This document shows positions 2,071 through 20,600 of a stretch of DNA of 64,000 nucleotides, piece after piece (position 1 is the first letter of the stretch; every line of letters begins with the position of its first letter). Source of the DNA: Polytrichum commune (lineage: Eukaryota; Streptophyta; Polytrichopsida; Polytrichales; Polytrichaceae). The position numbers and the translations under genes are program-made. The DNA lies in the NCBI GenBank assembly GCA_950295325.1, contig OX485809.1, forward strand, positions 13,454,001 to 13,518,000, in the 5' to 3' direction. The notes beneath the pieces were generated by a model, which saw nothing but the letters and a program-made list of their open reading frames with translations, searched no databases and was not told where the DNA came from.

Positions 2071-3439
2071 TTCCCACATTGTCAGTAATAACCAATGGAT
2101 TGTAACACTATTAAGTTAGTACAATTGACTTTGAGACCCCATTGTGTAGAAAGTTAATCTTGCAAGCTCAATGTGAAAGTATTACAAGTGACTCCCTCTA
2201 CAACACCTCGAGAAAATACGGTCTTAGGATTTGGAGTTTTAAAACATCCACCCATTAATCTAATTAAGAAAGACCTGAGTGCTTGGTCCCACCTTGCTGT
2301 CTTTGTGTTAAATTATGTCGAGAAATATTATGTATCGTGAAATAGATAAAACATGAATGGGGACAAAAACTTTCAAAGCAACTAAGACGACGCTTTTGAA
2401 AGTTTGACAAAGAGTTCATTTTATTATTGCCCTCTTTTGGCTATAATCAAACGTTAGGCCCTTGATATGAAAATTTATCTTGCTTTAAATTGTGATTATT
2501 ATTAGTACCTCTTGCCCACCTGCCATGTGCCACTACATTCCATTAGTTATTGAAATGGCTAGTGGGCAACCATAGCAACAAGGAACCGAGATGCCACCAT
2601 GTGCCAATTGGTAACCCAAATGCAATTAGTTTTGGCATGATGGCAAAGCCCACTAAGACAAACTACTCACTTTTTTCTTTTTTCTATTGTTTTGATGATT
2701 ATAAAACACTAGTTCAATGTAATACGAACTCTTTGGATATTGCCCAAAAAGTACCAAAAGCCACATCATGGCCTCCTAATCCTTTAGAGGTTTATATATA
2801 GTGCTTACTTTTGGACTAAGTAAGGGACCCAAATTTGGAGTTTGGTTTTCCAAATTGGGCGGAGTATTTTCACGAGTCGGAACGGGCAAGATTTGATGGG
2901 GAAGTGGTGCCACATGAGCATCACTTCATCTTCTCATACTCCTCGGGTCCTTGCTCTTAACCAATAAGATTGCTCAATTTTGAAATTTCCTTTTTATCTT
3001 GGACCCTAATGCAAATCCACCCTAAGAGCGAGCTGGTTCCAAAATCCTACTCATGTTAGCAAGTCCCAACAAGGAAACAAAGTCCCAACTTTTGAGCCTC
3101 AAAAAACCACTAAAATGTGATTGATATTTATGAAAGTAAAATGTTGGTTATTTAATGCAGAAAAGTTTGGAGACTTATGTTGCGAGTTAGATCTAACTTA
3201 GGTTTTTGCATGACCCAACTTTGAACACAAGTCCCGAACTTGACATATAAAACGTGGTGCCATGTAGGCATGCATGTCACAATTTGGGAGGCGTATAGAG
3301 TGGTGTGTCCCAACTTGCATGCAGTGAACGGCTGAGATTGCAGGGATTGAGGTGAAGGGAAGGGGGAGTTAGGAGTTGGGAGGTGTGAAGCGGGCGTAAG
3401 TAGAGTGGGAGGAAGGAAGGGCAGAGAACAAAGAGAAAA
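2071..3439. other. Intergenic, no gene seen
   Basis: AT-rich sequence with only short, low-quality reading frames in all six frames. No domain, RNA gene or clear repeat was recognised. Confidence 0.5.
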
Positions 3440-4420
3440 GATTCTTGTGTCCCTGTTGCTCTTGTTTCCCCCTGCCTCGCTCCCTTGCCTGCCTTCCTCC
3501 CCCTCCCACACCCCCGCCCAGCTCTCACTCTCGCTTATCAAATGCGAGTTTCGGCCTACTAACTCACGCCAAATTAGCCCAAGCTTCTCTCTCCCTCCCT
3601 CCCTCCCTCCCTCCCATTCTCCCATTCATTGAACTCCTCTTCCTCAATCCTCCTCCTGCTCCTGCTAATCTCCCACTAATCACGCCCTTCTTTTTATTTT
3701 TTTATTCTTTTGTGCTTTCTTTCGTCTTCCTGTCTCCCGCCGTGTCCCTTCCGATCAGCCTCCTCGTTCATCACTAATTCTCAGTTGCTTAAGTTCACCC
3801 ACCCATCCGCCTCGTTGATTAGGAGGCACCTACTCACTGTGTTCTTCTTCTTGCCTTCGTCCTTCTTTCCTTCACCACAATTTTGCCCTTGTGCAGTTTT
3901 GGACACAGGTAGGTTGGTAGCTAAGGGACTCATCAAGACTGAGCGCTAACTTAGTCACATCTCTGTCTCTCTCTCTTTGCACTTTCTTCTCCCACAAGCT
4001 CCCCTGTTCTGTCTGCGAGTGGGTGATTGGGTGGCAAGTTGTCTTTGGGTGGAAAAGATACTCCTCCTCTCGGTTTCTGTTTTTTGTTGGTTTCGGGTCT
4101 CTCCGGGACTCTGAAGTGGGGCTCCACTTTTTCATTCGTTTAGGCCAATTTCCCTTCGAGTTTTGTGCGTTTCGCAGGTTGTGAAAATGAGCAGGCAGTC
4201 TGGGCGGCAAGGGCAGCGACTGAAGCTGTTGTTGCTACATTATTCCACCCGCCACAAGATTTTCCTTCACATGTCCTCCTCCGCGGTGGCGGTCTCGATT
4301 ATTGCACTGGAGATTCACAGGGGATGAGAGATCGCCGTGTCGGTGATTATTTAATTGGGAGCGAAGTCACAAAGTTCATCTCTTCTATTCTTCTCTTCTT
4401 CTTTTCGTTCTTTCTTTCTT
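3440..4420 (+). promoter_or_regulatory. Pyrimidine-rich leader region upstream of the XRCC4-like gene
   Basis: Several hundred bases are strongly CT-rich on the + strand, including a (TCCC)n run at 3588-3614 and CT-rich tracts near 3960 and 4380-4430. Long CT-rich leaders are common around plant transcription starts, so the promoter and 5' UTR of the gene starting at 4517 are probably here. No TATA box could be assigned with confidence. Confidence 0.35.
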
Positions 4421-4516
4421 TGAGGGAGAAAGGGAGGGACTTCTGGGGGCCACCTGCAAATCTTTCTCCCCTCGCGCGCTTTCCATCTTTGCATTGTGAA
4501 GAAGATTTCATTAGCG

Positions 4517-7500
4517 ATGGTGGAGGCAGTAGTCTTCATGCCGAGTGTGACTTGCACTCGTCTGAGCTTGGGGGATGGAGGGAGACGACTCTATGTGAGA
4601 ACTGAATGGCTGGACGCTGGATTTGCTGTCACCGCTTTGGATTTCCCACAAGTATGGTCCTGCAATGGTGAGTATGTGTGGAGATTTCTTTTCTCCTTGG
4701 TTTCTGTGCGAGGGAATTTGAGGGATGGATGGATGGATGGCGTCAGGAGCGAGGTGCTGGGAGGATTTGGTGGAATTTCTTTTTCACAATTTTCTTCTGA
4801 GGGTGTGCTTCTTGCATGTTGCGTAGGGTAGCAGCAGCTAGGACAGCGAATTTGTCAACAATAGTGGAGTTATCCTTAACTCAATGGGGACTTGTGGCAG
4901 GGAGTTGGTTGGTCTCTACGATGTTCCATTGGTTGTTTTGCAATACAAAATCAATGATGTCTTTCCACTTGTGATGGTTTTGCTCGGAGGTGGTGTGTGA
5001 ATTCGAATAAAGAGCAACCTATTTCGTGAGCTTCATTGAGGGCCGAATCAACTCATTTCATTGCTCTTGGCATGTCAAAATGAGTTTGACCTTCAATGAG
5101 TGAACCGATATCGATATAGAATGTTCAATTCTTCGTTCAACTTTCCACACTACCTCCATCAAGCATGCACCAAAAACTTACTGAACATGGAAGGTGTTGT
5201 ATGCAAAATAACCAACTCCCCATCAAATGTCATGTCGAGTTAGAGAGGATAACTGTAATGTGCTTATTGGCTATGGCCTTTGAAGGCAGAATGTGCCAGG
5301 GTGTTGTTAGGGTTTTGTGAGCTGCAGTAACCTGTTCAAGGTTACACGCCTTTTGATGTAACCTTGAATTTGGGGAGGGGTGTGCATTGTGAGCAGGGCC
5401 AATCAATCTTATGAGAGAACAATCATGGTGATTGGAGTGGATAGTTATTGATGATGATAATGATGATTATGATGCTTTGGGGGGGTTAATTGTGAGCAGT
5501 GACCAAGGCGGATGTGGAAGAGAGGGCGTCCAGATGGGACATTTCGGTAGATGAGTATCTTCACAAGTCGCGCCTCTATCTCAGTAGCCAACACCCTGAA
5601 TCCGCCTACACATTCTCCGAGCTTCGAGATGAGAAAATGCGGGTATGGTACATGCAAATCAGATGCCCAAGTTGGTGGGATTACTCGTAGCCATTATTTT
5701 TCACCTATTTCAAATGCCCACAAAATTGGCTCACATACTTTCAAATGCACCCTGTTTTGTTCACAAGGAGGGCCCTCAGTTTTTTCTTTGAACACTCGTA
5801 GAGGTTAGGTTGCATGTTGTGTGTGTGTGTGTCTGTGGTGGAGGTCGGAGGCAGTGTGTTGATGATGTAGTTTTGGAAAGATATTGTGTTAAAGAGGTGT
5901 ACATTGCTGGCTTGGACTGAGCACCAAGTGTCCTGTGATACAGTTTTCGTGGACAACAAAGGACATCAAGAACGATCTCGTTCTGGTTGTGAATCTGATG
6001 ATGAGAAAAGAGAGTGACATCATGCCCTTCATACCTGGCTACCTGGATGGTTTGGGGGATGCAATCGAAGAACTCAAGGTATGTTCCATCCTCCTCCATT
6101 CCACAAAGGTGCGGTTTTAAAAATCACTGTTAGGAGGGAAATTCCAGTTGCACGAAAGAATTCTGTTGCCTCTTGTTGGCAGCCTTGAGTTGGTTTTTCC
6201 AAAATGAGCAAAGTGCTTTCCTTCTCTTGTGAGAACGAAATTCTAGTCAAGCCTTGTTGCAGGAAGGGTGAGAGCTATGGGTTAATGGCAGGATTTGCAG
6301 GAAGTGAATAAAAAGGCGGAGAAGAGCATGAAAGCCCGTCAAGTGGCGATGAAGTTTCGAGCCACAGAGAGAAGTGCACAGAAACACAAAAAGAAGAATC
6401 TTTGCAAGCAAGTTTTGACAAGGCAGGTGTTCAACAATGAAGGATTTGACAACCTGGAGATTGCTGATCCCCTGCCGAACAAGGGACTGAACTACAATAC
6501 TTGCACATTGACTTATGAACCTCCTCCTTCGAGTGTTGACTCTCAAACTCGTGGTCTTAGTGCTGCTGCTGCAGGGTGCAGTGACAGGTATGGAGTCACT
6601 GGCTATCAAACTTCCCAAGTGGATCCTCGAGTCTATGTTGCCACTGAAACTCCAAGATCACCAATGATGGCACCAAGGTACAGAGATGGTTCAGTAAGAG
6701 GTTCACAGCCTGCTTACAGTGCAGAAAAGGTGGCTTTGGCAGATAGCTTGGCATCCTCTCACCCTGACCATCATCAGATGGACCCCGGTTTCAGTCCCAT
6801 GAGTCTTGTAGCCAAGAATGCTAGAGGATCTCACAGGCAGTTCAAATCGATGCCACCAGAGTATGAGAGCCAAAGGCTAATGGGAGAACAACGGGGTAAG
6901 GGTGTGCACATCCCACTTAAAGAAGATTACTGCTTAGGGTTTAACAAGAAACCGAGTTCTTCGCCTTTGAAAACACCTGTGAAAGTGGACATGGACATAG
7001 CAGAGGGACTTGGTGTGCAAGCCAAGCGGTTTGAGGATTCAGCTATGGCGAGATCCTTTGAGCTTAGACAGCCATGGGCACAGTTCCATATGCCCGGGAG
7101 GCTTTCAAATGTGGATGTGTCCATGGTCAGGTGTGAGAGGATGCCTCCGATGCTGGAGAGCAAGGGTTCTTTGCAAAAGATGCCGACACGTGACAAGGGG
7201 GTAATTGCTCTTGAAACGAAGAAGACAGGTCTGCACATCCCGAATGTGAGTGGAGGGAAGGGAGGAAAACCTAACAAACCGTTGGGAAGTGGTGGGGAGC
7301 ATTCGGTTCCTGCAAAGGGCAAGGGGCATGGGTTAAGCCATGCTCGAGATGTGGTGATTCTGCTTAGTGACAGTGAAGGAGAAGGTGGTCTTGAGAAGCT
7401 TGCGGATGGTGATGGTTTGCAATGCACCACCGAAGATCTGCTAGAGCGAGAGAAGCAGGCTGCGTTTGAGGTATTGTTTGATGAGAGGGAGGGAGATGAG

Positions 7501-10500
7501 ATTGCGTATGCATGTGGTAGTGCTCAAGAGAAAACAATAACTCAGATCATTCAAGATGCGAACAATGGAGAATTGTATTCCAGCTCCATAACCATCATGG
7601 GCAACAGGTCAAAACGAGGGCCGCAGGGTGCTTGCTTTGCTGAAAGCTTCAAGAAGTCCAAGACTGGGAGTGTGGGGAATGTGAAGGTGAAAGACGAGAA
7701 GAGCAGTTGGAGGGGTGAGAGAGAAGGTGGAAGCTGGCCGGGCAATCTGGGGAAGCGGAAGGAGAGGTCCGACTCAGTCTTGGGGACAGATGTGTGGGGC
7801 AATGGTTTTGTGGATTCTAAGCACACAAAAAGTGAGGGTGTTTGGCTTGAGGAGCAACAACCATGCATTTTGCGAAGGAATAAGAGGGAACTGGATGCAC
7901 AAGCTTATGTGGGAGGTGACAATAAGGCAACATTTGAAGAGTTGCAGCGTGAGGAAGACTTTCCAGAGAAACCTACACCCAATACTATGGGTGGTTGCAA
8001 GGTCCCAGTTAATGTCAATGAATCCAGGTACTAAGCAAAGTGAAATTGCACCCTGTGCCTGCTTCGTGCTACAGAAACAGAGGATTCAAGAGATTTGTTG
8101 CTGTCATCTCTAGAGCAGGTCATGTAGTTCCTTAGTGTTTCCCACATTCTTGTGTTCTGCTTTTTCATCTACTCCCTTATGCTGCAGTTTCATTAGAATC
8201 TATGTTAAAAGCTCCCATTTATGCCTATGTAATCAGTTTCCTTGTGCTCTTGTGCAAACTTTTGCACCTTTAATAGCACATAAACACTGTTGAGCTGTTG
8301 AACGCCTGAGCTGCAAAACTGAACGTGCACACCATGTCTGCTTTGGGCTAAAAAACTCAGGATGTAAGAGAGTTGTTGTTGCCATCTGTAGAGCAGTTCA
8401 TATAGTTCCTTAATGTTTTTCCGCATTTTCGTGTTCAGGTATTTCATCCGCTCCCTTATGCTGCAGTTTTGAGATGCGTTGTTAGAAGCTCCCATTTATG
8501 CATGTAATTTCAAGTTTCGTCTTGTTCTTTTGCAAACATCTGCTGCACCTCTGATACCACAGAAACACTAGTGAATCATTCAGAGGACACCATGATAGAT
8601 TCAGATTTTGTTGAGAGATGGAAATTGGAACCATGTGACAGACCTACAACATATACTTCAAGCACATTATCAATTAGAATGTGCATGACCTGTGCATCTA
8701 CTGACTTCATACTCTTGGAAACGGGGTTCATGGTTGTTAGGGCTCAGTGGAACACCTGGATCAAAGAAGCCAAGACCGAAGTGACAGTGTGGGAGGCTCC
8801 AAGTCGAGATAGAGATGTAAGAAATGGAGGCACAGCACATGAGGAGTCTCCAATTCGAAACAGAGACATAAGAAATGCAGACTCAGTACACGAGGGGTCT
8901 CCCATTCGGAACAGACTTAACTTCAAAAATAATGGAGGCTTACTGCACGAGGAGGCTCCGATTCGTAATAGAGACTTGAGAAATGGAGGCTCAGTACATG
9001 ACGATGCTCCACATCGAAGTAGAGGCATAAGAAATGGAGGCTTAATGCATGAGGAGGCTCCACATCGAAATAATCGAGACTCGAGAAACAACGGAGGTTT
9101 CATGCATGAGGAGGCTCCAATTCGAAACAGAGATAGAGACGTACGAAATGGAGGCACATTATATGAGGAGGCTCCACATCGAACAAGAGACTTCAGAAAC
9201 GGAGGCTCTGTGCATCTGGAGGCTCTGATTCGAAATAGAGAGTCAAGAATTGGAGTCTCGGTACATGAAGAGGCTTCAATCCGAAATAGAGACTCGAGAA
9301 TTGGAGTCTTGGTACATGAAGAAGAGGCTCCTATCCGAAGTCCAGATGCAAGAAATGGAGGCTCGGTAGTGCACGAGGAGGCGCAACGAATATGGAGCCC
9401 TCTCCATACGAGTCCGGTGCGGGATTTGAAACTCCTTGACACACCACCTTCTGTGAAGAAAGTGGAAAGGCGCAATGATGTGTCAGATACAGCTAAGGTT
9501 CAGCCGAAGCGGCTCCAGCCGATGTTTGAGCCTGTGAATAATAATGGAAACATCAGCAATAGGGAGACACTGGAAGTTTCGGAGAGGAAACTCGAGGAGG
9601 GACTAGTTGAACAGAGCAATCCCAAGGAGATGATGATGGAGGGAACTACGAGAGAGGTGGCAGTTGAAGTTGATGTTCAGTTTGAGAATAAGATCTCAGA
9701 GAGGGAATTTGTTCAGATCGACGTAGAGAGTGATGGTGGGAGAGACATGGACATGGAGGGCGAGAGTGGTGATGAGCTTGTATTCAAAGCTGGGGAGTGT
9801 GGTGACTGCAAAGGAATTCCTCGCATGGGTGACACTGTTGCAAATGTGCTTGTCAATCGAGACAAGAAGTTGAGACTTAGAAAACTCTGTGAAAAGAAAT
9901 CACTCGGAAAGGATTCTTTCCCTCAGAAAACGCCAGGCCGAAGAGGACGGCCGCCTGGAAGATCGCACTCACTCACTAATTCAAGACAGCCTTTCTCACA
10001 AGGTAATCAATCATTCTTTCCTTTGTCGATTTTTTGCAGGAAATTGTGTTGTAATAAGAGGTTGCCTGTTTTGTTGAATTTTTTCAAATTGGTTTGGGTT
10101 GAAGAGTGCCGCTCCTTGCTATCTTTTGATGTGGTTAACTGCTCTTTGGATATCCATGGTTATTCTTGATCACCATTCAGAGATCTGTGGTCATCTGTGA
10201 TTACCTTGGGACATACGTGGTCATCTGTGATTACCTTGAGACATATGTGGTCATCTATGATTACTCTTTGGATATCCCAAGGATAAATTGAAAGGTAATT
10301 TAATTAACTCAATTTAAGATGACTGACACATTTATGATGGATTATTTTAACCCAAACCTGATCCCTATCCCTAACTATAACTCTAACCTTAACCACCCAC
10401 CAAATAATAACCATACCTATATTGCAAGATTCACTTTCTTGAATTTTATTTTTTATCCTTCGCTCACCAGCTGCCTTGAGGTAGAGGTTAACCTTACGCT

Positions 10501-13500
10501 TCGAGGGGAGCTCAATATAATTAACTGCCTCAACACTGGTTACAACTACACTGTTTATGGTATTTAGTGTCACATGCGTAATAGTGTTACTTCCCCCTAT
10601 CTTGAGACGTATGGCAAGTTACACTAATGATCAACAACTTTGTCTTAAGTGTCACCTCATGACACTTGGTGTGCGCTTACTAATATCTTGGCATGGGTAT
10701 GTTCAATATTGTTATGAAGTGTATGCCCATGTTACACAATGGTCTACAAGTTGACTAAAGTGTACACATATGACACTTGGCATTAGTGTACTCAAGAATA
10801 TCTTTTTCTTGCATTCCAAAATGTAAACACATGACACTTTCCATTAGCATACACAATAATATATTCCCCTTGCATGCTAAATTGCAAAAATATCACCTCA
10901 AGTACCCCAATGTGCTCCTGTAAATGTCATAATGTCTTCAATTTTTCACTTTAAAAAATTACTTATGTTTATGAATAGTTCATATTGGTGATTAGTGGAC
11001 GTGATGCTTTGAGACCTCTAGGTATCTAGTTTTAGGCCGCAAATCGTGTATGTGACACTATATATTATAGACGGTGTAGCATCTCGTTGATTCTAGTTCA
11101 TTTTGCACCTTGAGTTTGCACCTTGTTGCACCAGAACAGTATTTTAGACCTATGGGTAATGAAGGACTTAAGACTTCATGCTTATCTACCCATTTTGGGT
11201 TGCAGGTAGACCAGGTAGGCCACCTTTAAGGCCTATGGACTATAGGCTGCATTCACCTGTTTCCGACTTCGAGTCCATGCTCGTTTTACCGGACCAAAAC
11301 TTGCAGACGCCTGTTCCAGATTCTGATTTCTACTGCTTTGACAACGACCGCACTGAGGCCCATATAAAACCAAATGAGGTGTGTATTTATTTGTACTTCA
11401 TTAAATTTTCTAAGGATAGGTAGAATATGCAGAATCTGGTTCATAGCATTCATATGCAATTGCTTTCTTTGGACTTCACACGACGCTTGCCATTGGTATG
11501 CTCATATACTACCTGTAATTGAGGTGGTGTTGATCATTTTAGAAGATGTTGTAGCTGGTCTAGGTGTTGGAATGTTTCTCTTGAAGTACTTCTAGACTGT
11601 GAGCATCAACTGAGGTACCTTATTAAGGGCCACTTCAGTCTATGGTCAAGGGTCCTTGCCATGAAATTGTGAGGGCCCTTGAAACTCATCCAAAGTCCGT
11701 ACCATAGAAAATAAAATAAAAAATTTGTGTGGTCACAAGCCTTCAAGTGCAGTGTAAAAAATACCCAACTGGGCTCTCAACCAAATGCTTTTGCATTACC
11801 ATCCTATTCATGTGGGCCCTTTACTTATAATAAGTTATAATAAATCAAGGGTTGTGAGATTTTGAAGTGTCATGGTCTCCCGGTTGTGTGTCAGACCTAC
11901 CTCTTTGAGGGAGGCTTGAAACTGGCAGACCGTGAAATAATTATCCATTACATGCCACATAGGTTCTTCATACATTCAAACCTCCGTGGTCCCTCAGTCC
12001 CTCAAGGTATCTAGTGTAAAATTAAGTGGGATGTGGTCTTCATATTTTCCACCTATGAGAGATTTTAGATTACAATGATTACGGGCCCTCAAGCTCTAGT
12101 GCAAAGTGCCCCTAAGTGTAGTAGTTTTGATACATATTTTGCATCAGAGATGGAGGAATGCCGATTTGAGACACTTCGAGGAATGTCACACATACTAAAA
12201 ACTGGTTTGTTGTGTGCTCAGGTGTGGGCACTGTATGATCCGATTGATGAGATGCCGCGGACATGGGTGCGAGTTAAGAAAGTACATGCGCTTGGGAGTC
12301 CATTTGAAGTGAAGGCCACCTGGTTGGAGCCGGATAGCCCATGTGAACAAGCGCTAGAAAGGCAGAAGGTTTGGCTGTTTTCTAGCCTTTTTGAAAAATG
12401 AAGTTCCTTTGCAAAAACTCTCATTACATTCACAGTTTTGATTCTCCTACATAGTCCCCCATGTCAAGGAGACATTATAGAATATTTCGCACATTAATCT
12501 TTCTACTTGACAATGCAGAGTGCAATCTCTCTTTGTGCCTTTCTTTGGGAGGTGTTCCATGAACCCCTCTAATTTTAAAGTTAGTGAGGAATTTTATTGT
12601 GTCAAGATTGCTGCACTCGTGTATATTGATGATTCCATTGCAAAAAGACTCGATACATTCAGGGTCTTGATCCTCCTGCATAGCCCACCGAGTGAAGGAG
12701 ACATCATAATATTTTTCCACCCAAAGTCGTTCTGCTTGACTATGTAGAGTTCAGTCTCTCCTTGTGACTTTCTCAGGGAGGTGTTTCACTAGCACCTGAA
12801 CTCTTAACCCTTAAAGGTCCCTGCAACCCAATTTGGGTCTCGGTTACAAATGGAATGTCACAACATGGTCCTTTAGGGGTTAAAGTTAATGAGGATGTCT
12901 ATGGTGTCAAGATTGCTGCACTCGTGTATTCGTAAGTTCCTTAGCAAATAGTCTCATTACATTCTGAGTCTTGATTCTCCTGGATAGTGCACTTAGTCAA
13001 GGAGAGATTAGATAATATTCTCCACCTTAAGTCTTTCTGCTTGATATTGCAGGGTGTAGTCTCTCTTTGTGACTCTCTCTGGGAGGTGTTTCATGTTCCA
13101 CTTAATGAGTTAGTGAGGAAATCTATGGTGTCAAGATTGCTGCATTTATATATAGTAAAGTTCCTTTGCAAAAGATCTCATTACATTCAGAGTCTGTATA
13201 TTGAAGTCCCTTTTTTGCTTTGTTGAAGCAGGCATCTGGCTTCTCCATCTCTCTTGGGGACTTTCGAGAGGCTCCCGGAGGTCCAAGCATCATCAAGACA
13301 TCAAACTGCTTCTCCCACAAGATGCAATACGTGCAAGTCAATGAGACCATAGTGCAAATCTACCCACGAGTGGGGGAGGTGTGGGCACTTCATCGCAAAG
13401 TGCGGAAACGTGATAATTCTGAAAAGTCGAAATCAGGTGACAACCCTGGCTTTCGGCTCGTGGTGATCTCATCTGAATGTGGGCGTGGGCAACCCAGTGA

Positions 13501-13711
13501 GATTCGTGTGCTTAAAAAGCGAACAGGATATCGGACATTATGGGAGCCAGGGTACCAGCCGGGGCCACTCCCGCTCGAATATATCCATCTTTTCTCACAC
13601 AAAGTGCCCGCGTACAAGTTAAGGGATAAGGATTTTCCTGATCTGATGGGCCTGGATTGTTGGGACATTGACGCCGCTGCTATCCCAATGTGTCAGTCAT
13701 TTGTCACGTGA
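4517..13711 (+). CDS. XRCC4-like head domain / AT-hook / DUF3444 protein, eight-exon model
   Basis: Exons: 4517-4667, 5500-5642, 5944-6078, 6301-8027 (or from 6292), 8741-10002, 11206-11378, 12222-12368, 13232-13711. Phases agree at every junction, giving 1405 residues. Residues 1-110 match the XRCC4 head: an MVE start, a YVRTEW strand, W-S-C-N, then EERASRWD, VDEYL and the FSWT strand. XRCC4 is the non-homologous end-joining scaffold for DNA ligase IV in the nucleus. The following helix is short and I cannot see the ligase-binding stretch. Residues about 144-735 are disordered, with a SUMO-interacting-like VVILLSDSE at 494. Residues 737-935 are 17-residue repeats. AT-hooks lie at 1119-1125 and 1140-1146. 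DUF3444 follows, with FYCFDNDRTE, VWALYDPIDEMPR and GEVWALHRKV. XRCC4 proteins are usually about 250-340 residues. Alternative: two genes, one ending at the TAA at 8034 and one starting near 8592. The XRCC4 and DUF3444 matches are firm; the single transcript is inferred. Confidence 0.6.
4901..5219. repeat. Foldback/MITE-like repeat, copy 2 (intron 1 of the XRCC4-like gene)
   Basis: The 10-bp ends are perfect inverted repeats (GGAGTTGGTT / AACCAACTCC). The inverted similarity continues inward: the right arm read in reverse gives 'ttgcatacaac', then 'tcattgaaggtcaaactcattt', matching the left arm's 'tgcaatacaa' and 'tcattgagggccgaatcaactcattt'. Most of the element can therefore fold back. It is the most complete of three copies. 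Confidence 0.65.
8041..8580. repeat. Imperfect 278-bp tandem duplication in intron 4
   Basis: The block containing 'tagagcag', 'tagttcctta', 'cccttatgctgcagttt' and 'agctcccatttatgc' occurs twice, with 'tagagcag' at 8111 and 8389. The unit is about 278 bp. If the eight-exon model is right it is intronic; if the locus is two genes it is intergenic. Confidence 0.8.
8793..9390 (+). repeat. Coding tandem repeat: 11 units of a 17-19-residue motif
   Basis: Within exon 5 the protein repeats E-E-A-P-I-R-N-R-D-x-R-N-G-G-S-V-H about eleven times, plus a partial twelfth. Units vary to 19 residues by insertions such as RDRD or NN. Each unit has an acidic pair, a basic Arg-rich core and a Gly-Gly turn ending in His. 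The reading frame is held across all copies, including 6-base indels, which supports translation. Confidence 0.85.
10546..11080 (+). mobile_element. Non-autonomous TIR element, copy 1 (intron 5)
   Basis: The left end CACTGTTTATGGTATTTAG (from 10549) and the reverse complement of the right end, CACCGTCTATAATATATAG, match at about 23 of the first 30 positions. Both ends are bordered by TA, which could be a TA target duplication or part of the inverted repeat. No transposase frame is present. Related copies lie at 43282-43536 (partial) and 46402-47037 (opposite orientation). Confidence 0.65.
12411..13230. repeat. Tandem array, about 3.5 units of 228 bp in intron 7
   Basis: Units start at 12411, 12640, 12944 and 13169, each opening 'gcaaa(a/t)a...ctc(a/g)at(t)acattc'. 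Each full unit also carries 'gggaggtgtt(t/c)ca' and 'gtgtcaagattgctgca'. The second unit is 76 bp longer because of the insertion at 12808-12879. The array ends at the acceptor of the last exon. Confidence 0.85.
12804..12883. mobile_element. 72-bp miniature element flanked by TTAA (piggyBac-like MITE)
   Basis: A 72-bp block (12808-12879) is flanked by TTAA at 12804-12807 and 12880-12883. Its ends are inverted repeats: CCCTTAAAGGTCCCTG against the reverse complement CCCCTAAAGGACCATG, 13 of 16 matching. The first unit of the surrounding array has a single TTAA at the same place and no insert, so the unit serves as an empty site. TTAA duplication and a CCC start are piggyBac hallmarks. It is too short to encode protein. 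Confidence 0.7.
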
Positions 13712-17690: not shown

Positions 17691-20600
17691 GTCAAGGTGG
17701 ATGTGGACGAAGCGGACGAAGATGGACGGACGGGCAGTGCCGTTTAAGCACGAGGTCCAAGGTGGATTGGTTCAGGAGATTTGAAGTTGCAGCAGCTAAC
17801 CGCGAAGTGGACAAAGAGTTTGCTCTTCCGTCGAAGTTCGTCCATGGGAAGATGCTGAGTGAAGTGAGCAGCTGGGGCATCGGTGGTCCAGCCAAGATGT
17901 TCGTGGAGGTGACGGATGCGACTGAAATGGCCTCTGTTCTTAGGTTTGTCACTCCACTCTGCTCTTTGTTGTTGCTCGCTCTTGAAGCTCCGAATCAGTA
18001 TCGAAACCTGTTGAGTTAGAATTTTTGTGATGGATTAATGAGAAAGATTTTGGCAATTACGTCAGATGAGTAATGAATTGTGCCATAGTTTCCGTATTTA
18101 TTCCAAGAGTCGGTCAGTGTGCGTAATTGGGCAATAGCATATGACAATTGAAGTTTGGAAAGTTTGTGAAAACAATTTATGCACTGATTCATGAGAAAAC
18201 AGTTTTGGCAATACATATAATGAATCATTAATTCGTGCAATAGTTTCCAAATTTGTGCATTGGTCGGTCAGTGTGTGTAGTTGTGCAATAGTTTCCGAAT
18301 TCGTTGCAATAGTTGGTCAATGTGTGTAATTGGGCAATTAATGGCCTATCACCACTGAATTTTAGATATTATGTGATCGATTCATGAGGTAGGATTTTGG
18401 CATTAGATGTAATGAGTCATGAATTATGCAGTTCTGATTTCTGGTTTCATTGCAACAGTTGATCAGTGTGCTTGATTGGGCAATGAATGGCTTGTGACCA
18501 TTGAAGTTGAGTTTGGGCTCTTCATTGCACAATTTCTACTTGATGCTAATTTTTTAGGTCATAAGCATCCCGCAATGATATATTTGCAACTGCCAAAGGG
18601 GGTCCCAATGTGAGACGTTTATGAAATAAAATCAAATGGGGGTACTAGAAATGGACATGTGGCTGATTGCCTGTAGTGAGTAGGAAAATGACTCCCAAGT
18701 GGGTTAGTCACCACATCACTCAGATGCTTGAGAATGGAAGGCCGCCACCAAGTGGGTTAGTCACTGCAACCCTTAGATGTTTGAGAAGTGGAAGGTGGTT
18801 GTGTGCACACATATAAGAGAGCAAGCTTCTTAAAAGGACAATCTTCTCCTTTGCATTTGTGCAACCATCACAAGTTTGCACTTGAGCCATGAAACCATGG
18901 AATATGGTTACTTTTGTCATGACGTGGATCTCTTGTGTTTCTCTGTTTTGCTAAATCATTATGGCATGGAGAGGGGTGCTAGACTTGCTAATGAATGTAG
19001 ATGTGTAGCCCCTCCGCAGTATATAAATGCACAGTTGTCTTACAGGTATTGCACGAATCGGGATATAAAGTGGTTTGTTGTTGGAAAGGGATCGAATTGC
19101 TTGTTCGATGACCGGGGTTTTGATGGCTGTGTCATACTCAATCAAGTTACTTTTCTGAAGAACCTCAGCCTGGGAATGTATTATGTGGGAAGTGGCTATC
19201 CCTTCAACCAGCTAGGTATTCAGTGCTCTCGTGCTGGATTCTCGGGTCTGGAGTTTGCAGGTGGAATCCCAGGCACTGTTGGCGGGGCCATCTACATGAA
19301 TGCGGGTGCGGATGGGCAGGTGTGATTGTGCCTACCATGTATGTCTAACAAATTTTCTGCTCTTGAACCTCTAATCATCTCCTGTAAGGTTTTTCTGTCA
19401 TCATATGAGATCACCATTTCTTCCTGAATGAACATTTTTTTGTAAGCACAAGGAATGATGTGATGCCAGTTAAAACAAATTGGTTATGCTTACCTTTGGT
19501 TCTTAGGGTTTTTTAAGGGCTCTATCTGTGTGTTTACGAATTGCTTTTCGGTTGCTTGCATGTACATGTTGCAGTGTTGCGGCATGTGTCTATGTGATTG
19601 TGTTTTGAAGTCAGAATACCTTGGTTGTGAGAGTGAGATTCGGCTGACCTGATGGCACTTCAAACAGTTTCTTCACATTCCACAACCGTTCTCTCAGTTC
19701 AGATCATATTTTGCCATGCATGACACAGGCGATAGTAGAGAACTTTTTGCTTGAAAGAGGCAATGTTAGGGTGAAATCTTTGTTGGAATAGTTAACTCAG
19801 TATTGATATGCGAGGTAGGATTCTCGTAGTTTAAGTCATTTACACAATCTTCTCTGTGGCATTCTGTGGTATTCTATGTGTATTCTAGGGCACCCTATAT
19901 CTCGTCTTACTAAAGCCCTTTATAGTGGTCTTTACAGGAAACGGGAGATGTTGTGCAGATGGTGAACATTGTGACAATTGATGGGGCCTCGCACACACTT
20001 TCCAAAGAGTCAGGCGCACTGGACTTCCAGTATCGCACTTCTCCATTTCAGAAAATGAAACATTCTGCAGTAATTGTGGGTGCTACATTTGAGCTAGTCC
20101 CAGATGTGGATGCAAAGCAAAGGCAGCGATCTTATTTGGAGAGGTGCAGGCCACTTTACAAATATCCTGGGTTCATGAAAAAATTTGTATCTCTTCAAGT
20201 GGTGCAGCAAACAAGAGCACAAGCGAAACTAAATTCTTGTGAATATTTTAGATAAACTGGTCCCATATGGTTAGAGTAGATTCTCTTAAAACCTTGAAGA
20301 GAATTCCATTTAAGTGGAGGCTGCATATGTGAGGGTCTGCCCTTTCCTTTTCTGTATTTATTGGATACATGATCACACCTTTCTTTCTCAAGTGTTTAGC
20401 ATGGAGCTTCCTGTTGGTGTTCAATGACGATTTCTTGTGACATGAAATTCTTTGGTGGTTGTGAACTGTGTAGGCGGAAGAGGTCCCAACCAGTTTCTGA
20501 AAAGAGTGCCGGGTGTGTGTTTCGCAACCCAGGGCTGGGATGCCAGTCCGCAGGTGCACTGATTGAACAGGCAGGCCTGAAGGGCATGCAAGTTGGAGGA

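Follow-up and report, generated by a model that had tools for sequence, protein, structure and literature searches.

Predicted fusion of an XRCC4-type head to a DUF3444 domain in a gene family of the moss Polytrichum commune

In this work we describe a locus of Polytrichum commune that most likely is one gene, encoding a protein of 1,408 residues in which an XRCC4-type head is followed by a long middle region and a terminal DUF3444 domain. The window, which is the whole stretch of DNA analysed, is 64,000 nucleotides long (contig OX485809.1, positions 13,454,001 to 13,518,000), and the gene occupies positions 4517-13711 of its + strand. The sequences of the paralogues L001, L002 and L003, rather than the junction between the two halves of the gene, indicate that the fusion of head and DUF3444 in one gene is real, and it looks like an undescribed family, not a gene-model error. 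At least four such fusion genes are present in the genome (the window gene, L001, L002 and L003), and a literature search found no paper naming DUF3444 together with XRCC4. The features of the window gene, as predicted, are the following:

4517..4667, + strand: exon 1, with Met at 4517; start of the XRCC4 head; ends in phase 1
5500..5642, + strand: exon 2, core of the XRCC4 head, giving 27.8 bits by itself
5944..6078, + strand: exon 3 (135 nt), end of the XRCC4 head and the helix after it
6292..8027, + strand: exon 4, a basic stretch behind the head, followed by a long part lacking any Pfam match
7351..7377, + strand: stretch VVILLSDSE (residues 497-505), SUMO-interacting-motif-like
8741..10002, + strand: exon 5, whose start reads AQWNTWIKEAKTE (L001 counterpart AQWKEWLQEAKTE)
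8792..9368, + strand: in-frame minisatellite, 51-base (17-residue) unit, about 10.9 copies
9936..9962, + strand: AT-hook-like motif GRRGRPPGR, read by eye
11206..11225, + strand: second AT-hook-like motif GRPGRPP, read by eye, first base from exon 5
11206..11378, + strand: exon 6, DUF3444 match from 11307
12222..12368, + strand: exon 7, first part of DUF3444 (VWALYD...MPR)
13232..13711, + strand: exon 8, second part of DUF3444, match to about 13627; stop codon at 13709-13711

The eight exons and seven phase-keeping GT..AG junctions put forward in the preliminary description are all present, and the joined exons are translated without an internal stop. In L002 the two domains lie in one uninterrupted frame of 733 residues (head 45.1 bits, DUF3444 199.2 bits), while in the window gene, L001 and L003 they are brought together by joined exons. 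L003 and L002 align nearly end to end (residues 1-731 and 1-644, 30.9%, E 6e-92). The exons of the window gene recur one by one in L001, whose protein gives three collinear matches with that of the window: DUF3444 (E 2e-52), the head (E 2e-18) and the start of exon 5 (blastp E 0.003; tblastn E 4.6e-4 with filters off). Beyond these three regions no separate match was found between the two. L001 also carries an apparent broken duplicate of its exon-4 start. Two further genes have heads: L007, the sixth head gene of the genome, in which DUF3444 was not found, and L004, an ordinary XRCC4 gene. The preliminary description held that a second, ordinary XRCC4 gene, with this locus unexpressed, would speak against it; L004 does exist, but alongside several fusion genes.

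The proposal that exons 1-3 encode an XRCC4-type head holds. In a Pfam scan of the protein alone, the XRCC4 N-terminal domain PF06632 matches residues 25-104, spread over these three exons, with 57.8 bits (E 1.2e-15; cut-off 26.2). The XLF N-terminal domain PF09302 reaches 21.4 bits, under its cut-off of 24.6, and the PAXX domain has no row at E<=1 in a scan against all Pfam, so membership of XLF or PAXX was rejected. When a profile of five heads, one of them L004 itself, was compared with the PDB, XRCC4 chains made up 17 of the 24 rows at E<=10 (best E 5e-12), and five rows were XLF (E 0.8-1.3). The window protein thus has the same N-terminal head as ordinary XRCC4 (L004, Physcomitrella Pp3c1_38430), but L004 is short, carries the ligase-IV-type coiled coil XRCC4_CC (PF21924; 35.4 bits) and has no DUF3444, whereas the much longer window protein ends in DUF3444 and XRCC4_CC is unlisted for it at E<=1 in the Pfam scan. 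The same coiled coil is unlisted at E<=1 for L002 and two pieces of L003, and for the three pieces of L001 that were scanned (head piece, exon 4 and exon 5).

The heads of the fusion genes probably derive from XRCC4 itself, because their scores fit XRCC4 rather than XLF, and because two introns are common to the L004 model at predicted sites. Three head introns lie at identical columns and phases in the window and L001 models, and two of these three also match the L004 model in place and phase; the counterparts of exon 3 in L001 and L004 are likewise 135 nt long, the L004 splice sites not being unique. Two introns within DUF3444 are at identical columns in the window and L001 models, with matching phases at the flanks of exon 7, and intron 4 is in phase 2 in both, exon 4 ending within an Arg codon split AG|G. 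For L001 and L004 we picked the splice sites by eye, in the case of L001 while consulting the window model, and several pairs fit: the frame is kept by 12 of 140 pairs at L001 intron 4 (6 in phase 2) and by 35 of 112 at intron 1 of L004. Intron agreement is therefore taken as support resting on predicted splice sites, and its use as a blind test was dropped. The history of the fusion may have been one event followed by duplication, but two fusions are possible, since the DUF3444 of the window protein is nearer to the two DnaJ copies (tree paths 3.57 and 3.70) than to L002 and L003 (4.06 and 4.17), and since no branch of the head tree reaches both support limits.

The assignment of exons 6-8 to DUF3444 is confirmed by the Pfam scan (PF11926, 146.5 bits, E 1.1e-42, residues 1177-1381, cut-off 26.1). 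Three weak DUF3444 rows in the genome (E 0.43-3.98) were left out of the gene counts, and an internal repeat search gave 14 columns at a probability of 71%, too short for use. DUF3444 is also carried by two DnaJ proteins of the same genome, L005 and L006, by the rice clade VII J-proteins at their C-terminus (PMC6730974, available text) and by plant DNMT3 methyltransferases, which end in it (PMC6453930, available text). The C-terminal position is common to the window protein and the DnaJ proteins, but L005 and L006 have a DnaJ domain and a zinc ribbon where the window protein has its head; PF00226 scores 62.9 bits in L005 and 53.2 bits in L006 and is unlisted for the window protein. In DNMT3, as in the window protein, DUF3444 lies C-terminal to another DNA-acting domain (PMC6453930, same text), but that domain is a methyltransferase, and the C-5 methyltransferase domain PF00145 is unlisted for the window protein in the Pfam scan. 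Membership of either group was rejected on these absences. A genome search with PF00145 gave 123 rows, mostly short matches in long frames and uninformative on DNMT3; one of them, L008, is a retrotransposon.

We propose, at what we judge an even chance of being right, that the fusion proteins are XRCC4 paralogues that have become dimeric scaffolds, with DUF3444 as the tether to chromatin. The heads of the gene set would have come from a copy of the XRCC4 gene; the head would dimerise as XRCC4 does and may stack on, or bind, partners of the XRCC4 family; and DUF3444, with the AT-hooks or lysine-rich linkers, would keep the dimer on chromatin. Lacking a ligase-IV-type coiled coil, the protein would be a structural scaffold, XLF/PAXX-like or on the chromatin side, and not a ligase cofactor. 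XLF and PAXX have XRCC4-type heads without XRCC4's mode of ligase IV binding, and a head working without such a coiled coil is a possible common mode, but the window protein adds a long middle and DUF3444. A nuclear or chromatin location and a tie to break repair are inferred, and retention on chromatin would follow from the company DUF3444 keeps rather than from its fold, since a comparison of its profile with solved structures gave nothing significant (two rows, the better one a ribosomal protein at E 0.039). Of the earlier interpretation, a scaffold that may tie end joining to DNA binding, the true XRCC4-type head and DUF3444 in one gene stand (Pfam scores, L001, L002), but a role in ligation itself appears less likely than a structural one, given that XRCC4_CC is unlisted for the window protein.

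The same architecture could also serve as a scaffold for chromatin or transcription that takes no part in end joining. The head would then be a dimerisation module only, and DUF3444 a means of recruitment to chromatin; we consider this possible, with clearly less than an even chance. Related heads act as dimerisation modules in SAS-6 and CCDC61, and the fact that XRCC4_CC is unlisted for L002, L003 and the window protein fits such a role, as does the presence of DUF3444 on L005, L006 and plant DNMT3. Two Arabidopsis DnaJ proteins, SDJ1 and SDJ3, reside in the nucleus and help to activate methylated promoters (PMC7827474, which makes no mention of DUF3444). The expression of moss genes may point the same way: the ordinary XRCC4 gene of Physcomitrella is 149x up after bleomycin (PMC4990234, available text), and a second XRCC4-like gene, Pp3c14_21160, was not differentially expressed in a protoplast study (PMC8803787, available text). 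The latter is an extra XRCC4-type gene of a moss and could, but need not, be orthologous to the fusions. Against a role foreign to end joining, the heads are recognised as XRCC4 rather than XLF, and the window and L001 models share two predicted introns with the ordinary XRCC4 gene.

The middle of the window protein is probably disordered. VVILLSDSE resembles a SUMO-interacting motif; the strict pattern turns up in 2 of 2000 shuffles of the window protein and is absent from L001, L002 and L003. The two AT-hooks reported earlier before DUF3444 are visible by eye as motif matches, but the Pfam scan lists no AT_hook at E<=1 for the window protein, and the second motif is not confined to exons 6-8. 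If the fusion gene, though real, were in decay or silent in this plant, this would agree with the coding minisatellite inside the protein, with the absence of separate matches between window and L001 outside the head, exon-5 start and DUF3444, and with the apparent broken duplicate in L001. We nevertheless find such decay or silence improbable: 1,408 codons are open over eight usable exons, 25 DUF3444 columns are invariant across all six copies (among them that of the window), and for exon 4 (578 codons) the probability that such a frame is open by chance is P ~3e-15, calculated on Markov sequence with the composition of the window. That calculation is less telling for exon 5, part of which is the 51-base repeat.

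Between exons 4 and 5 the donor at 8028 is poor (CAG|GTACTA), and 42 of the 324 GT..AG pairs tried around 8027/8741 keep the frame. Phase agreement there is by itself weak evidence, as the preliminary description had cautioned, and was dropped as decisive proof; the exact sites are predicted, one of many frame-keeping pairs. In L001, 14 residues without a Met separate the last in-frame stop from the conserved AQWKEW, so that its exon 5 must be spliced from upstream. The alternative of two neighbouring genes joined in error, the first XRCC4-like with its end at 8034 and the second, with DUF3444, beginning near 8592, had earlier been left open and could draw on the poor donor, the many alternative pairs and the open frame upstream of exon 5 with its Met at 8592, but we set it aside as very unlikely in view of the single frame of L002, the collinear L003, the start-less exon 5 of L001 and the phase-2 Arg split that agrees in the L001 model.

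Elsewhere in the genome, four SAM_LFY (LEAFY) matches suggest that the plant is a land plant or a near relative of one. Ku-domain matches occur at two places, the ligase IV motif PF11411 gave one row of 16.2 bits, below its cut-off of 22.1, and XLF gave no match in a search without a working control. A bolder form of our proposal, tentative and in our view rather unlikely, is a plant family of chromatin-tethered XRCC4 paralogues that would perform XLF/PAXX bridging, DUF3444 steering end-joining scaffolds to particular chromatin much as the same module would steer DNA methylation in DNMT3 and transcription co-factors in DnaJ proteins. Gene targeting makes it possible in the moss Physcomitrella to measure whether end joining or homologous recombination is chosen (PMC8803787, available text). 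If the product works in repair, it would link break repair with a plant domain so far encountered on proteins of DNA methylation and on chaperones, and would be a candidate for the XLF/PAXX-like parts of plant end joining. To our knowledge these parts are poorly known in plants. Even if it is unrelated to repair, the protein would present an XRCC4 head in a new use.

The preliminary description read positions 4517-13711 as one eight-exon gene that begins with an XRCC4-type head and ends in DUF3444, and this model holds: the exons join into 1,408 residues followed by a stop, all seven introns have GT..AG borders, and in a Pfam scan of the protein alone both domains exceed their cut-offs (XRCC4 N-terminal domain, PF06632, residues 25-104, 57.8 bits, cut-off 26.2; DUF3444, PF11926, residues 1177-1381, 146.5 bits, cut-off 26.1). 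XLF remained at 21.4 bits, under its cut-off of 24.6, and no other Pfam family was found at E<=1 in the joined protein. The probability that a frame as long as exon 4 stays open by chance is ~3e-15. The junction of exons 4 and 5 (8027/8741) had been singled out as the weak point, rightly so: its donor is GTACTA, 42 of the 324 GT..AG pairs tried around it keep the frame, and by itself it is weak evidence.

Across the whole genome (G000, 407.8 Mb, 64 contigs, with the window on contig C7), PF06632 matched at four places and PF11926 at eight, and two XRCC4 places besides the window directly precede DUF3444 places. In the first, L002 (C7:28104001-28111000), head and DUF3444 share a single frame that runs unbroken for 747 codons and gives 733 residues from the Met (XRCC4 45.1 bits, DUF3444 199.2 bits). 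In the second, L003 on C2, they lie in two frames joinable via one intron, for which two acceptors were tried; the joined protein aligns with almost all of the L002 protein (758 columns, 30.9%, E 6e-92). Because L002 is a single frame and L003 matches it over almost its whole length, the head-DUF3444 architecture is independent of any splice guess. Judged from sequence, the architecture at the window locus is real, and the window gene is one of several such genes in the genome and no single oddity. The presumed intron of the C2 gene contains several degenerate telomere-like CCCTAA units (L003 4182-4594).

The close paralogue L001, on C3, has the layout of the window gene: three head exons, then a long one, then one bearing the AQW motif, and finally DUF3444. 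Its protein gives three collinear blast matches to the window protein (DUF3444, E 2e-52; head, E 2e-18; start of exon 5, E 0.003), and its exon 5 contains AQWKEWLQEAKTE, the window counterpart being AQWNTWIKEAKTE. Only 14 residues, with no Met, separate the last in-frame stop from the AQW motif in L001, and therefore the AQW exon cannot start a second gene; exon 5 as the start of a separate gene is thus ruled out in this paralogue. All six introns of the L001 model have the phases of their window counterparts, and three head introns and two DUF3444 introns fall on identical alignment columns. Intron 4 is in phase 2 in both models, with an Arg codon split AG|G near the AQW motif, and is not on one column in the trimmed alignment used; in L001, 12 of 140 site pairs for this intron keep the frame, six of them in phase 2. 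The window intron 10003-11205 is one extra relative to L001. Since the L001 sites were picked by eye in knowledge of the window model, and since alternative site pairs keep the frame, the intron agreement between the two models is support and no blind test. This caveat leaves the odds of a single gene as before, because neither the single frame of L002 nor the lack of a Met in L001 depends on the chosen sites. The start of L001 exon 4 seems tandemly duplicated (~4057-4146 and from 4374); the upstream copy hits a stop and looks decayed.

The genome also carries an ordinary XRCC4, L004 (C1:40556501-40564500), with a head of 40.7 bits and the XRCC4_CC coiled coil (PF21924) at 35.4 bits. Two introns of its model match introns of the window gene and L001 in column and phase, and they enclose an exon of 135 bases in all three models, although the L004 sites are not unique (at the first intron, 35 of 112 pairs preserve the frame, and the third exon has 12 possible starts). 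Judged by these shared features of the gene models, the fusion heads probably descend from an XRCC4 gene. A LEAFY-domain match (G000:C1:40569930) lies ~10 kb from the ordinary XRCC4 (G000:C1:40559457). The L002 head, used as query, also brought up a sixth head gene, L007 (E 0.005), two exons of which, once joined, score 45.6 bits for XRCC4:

G000:C1:50856001-50866000, features 2371-9094: XRCC4-type head and frames of 203 and 1,243 codons

Neither of these two further frames has a Pfam match, and L007 may encode a long disordered protein that carries an XRCC4 head and lacks DUF3444. Its first-exon donor, AATG|GTAAGG, read by eye, is at the place of the window gene's first intron. DUF3444 is present in four of the six head genes found and the head in four of the six DUF3444 genes found, the other two (L005 and L006) having a DnaJ domain; both gene counts are lower bounds, as the searches rate best candidates one exon at a time. 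In a six-row tree of DUF3444, the window gene pairs with L001 (100/100), L002 with L003 (97/96) and L005 with L006 (91/92), and the window domain is closer by path to DnaJ-type DUF3444; this unrooted tree fits a single fusion without showing one. In the six-row head tree, which has very long branches, the pair of the window gene and L001 (89/88) is the one resolved grouping.

Among ten frames of the window scanned against Pfam, these others have matches:

18834-19322, (+): FAD_binding_4 frame, 44.6 bits
44393-45874, (+): class-V aminotransferase frame, 313.7 bits
53264-55546, (-): DUF229 frame, 120.2 bits

Elsewhere in the genome, L008 (G000:C6:31138501-31143500) is a retrotransposon with a piece of C-5 cytosine methylase (profile positions 48-121) between the aspartic protease and the next frame, which encodes reverse transcriptase and RNase H. 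Retrotransposons carrying methyltransferases have been reported elsewhere. PF00145 matches 123 places on contigs C1-C7, most of these matches lying in long frames and spanning roughly that piece of the domain, so that such elements may form a high-copy family, with one copy, L008, as the basis.

In the open-access library searched, no paper contains both 'DUF3444' and 'XRCC4', and the architecture may be listed in plant protein databases. In Physcomitrella, the ordinary XRCC4 is induced 149-fold by bleomycin, according to the accessible part of PMC4990234, and a 'second XRCC4-like gene', Pp3c14_21160, is named in that of PMC8803787, its other content unstated, and in no other paper of that library. 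The accessible part of PMC5483884 says nothing of plant XLF or PAXX.

As to function, Pfam listed no XRCC4_CC at E<=1 in the window protein, L002 or both L003 pieces, and none in the head piece, exon 4 and exon 5 of L001; ligase-cofactor work would therefore be less likely than a structural role for the fusion proteins. Against solved structures, a five-head profile gave 24 rows at E<=10, of which 17 are XRCC4 crystal chains (best E 5e-12) and five are XLF (E 0.8-1.3); this profile includes L004 and is no independent proof for the window head, which rests on its own Pfam score. DUF3444 has no significant relative among solved structures. It is described at the end of plant DNMT3 methyltransferases in non-flowering streptophytes (PMC6453930, in part), and in one subclade of rice J-proteins most members have DUF1977 or else C-terminal DUF3444, the latter in one or two copies (PMC6730974, in part); the proteins that share DUF3444 thus hint at a nuclear setting. 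In its middle part, the window protein contains two AT-hook-like motifs and a SUMO-interacting-type motif, whose strict pattern occurs in 2 of 2000 shuffles and is absent from L001-L003. Exon 5 includes a coding minisatellite (8792-9368, 51-base unit, ~10.9 copies), a stretch with no blast match to the L001 protein.

The lack of an XRCC4_CC match, the domain company of DUF3444 and the motifs in the middle favour a reading in which the window protein, derived from XRCC4, would act as a dimeric scaffold tethered to chromatin. The protein may serve in end joining, or may use the head for dimerisation only, with no end-joining role. In either case, the product of the window gene would be a variant of XRCC4-type proteins, new in its fusion to DUF3444.
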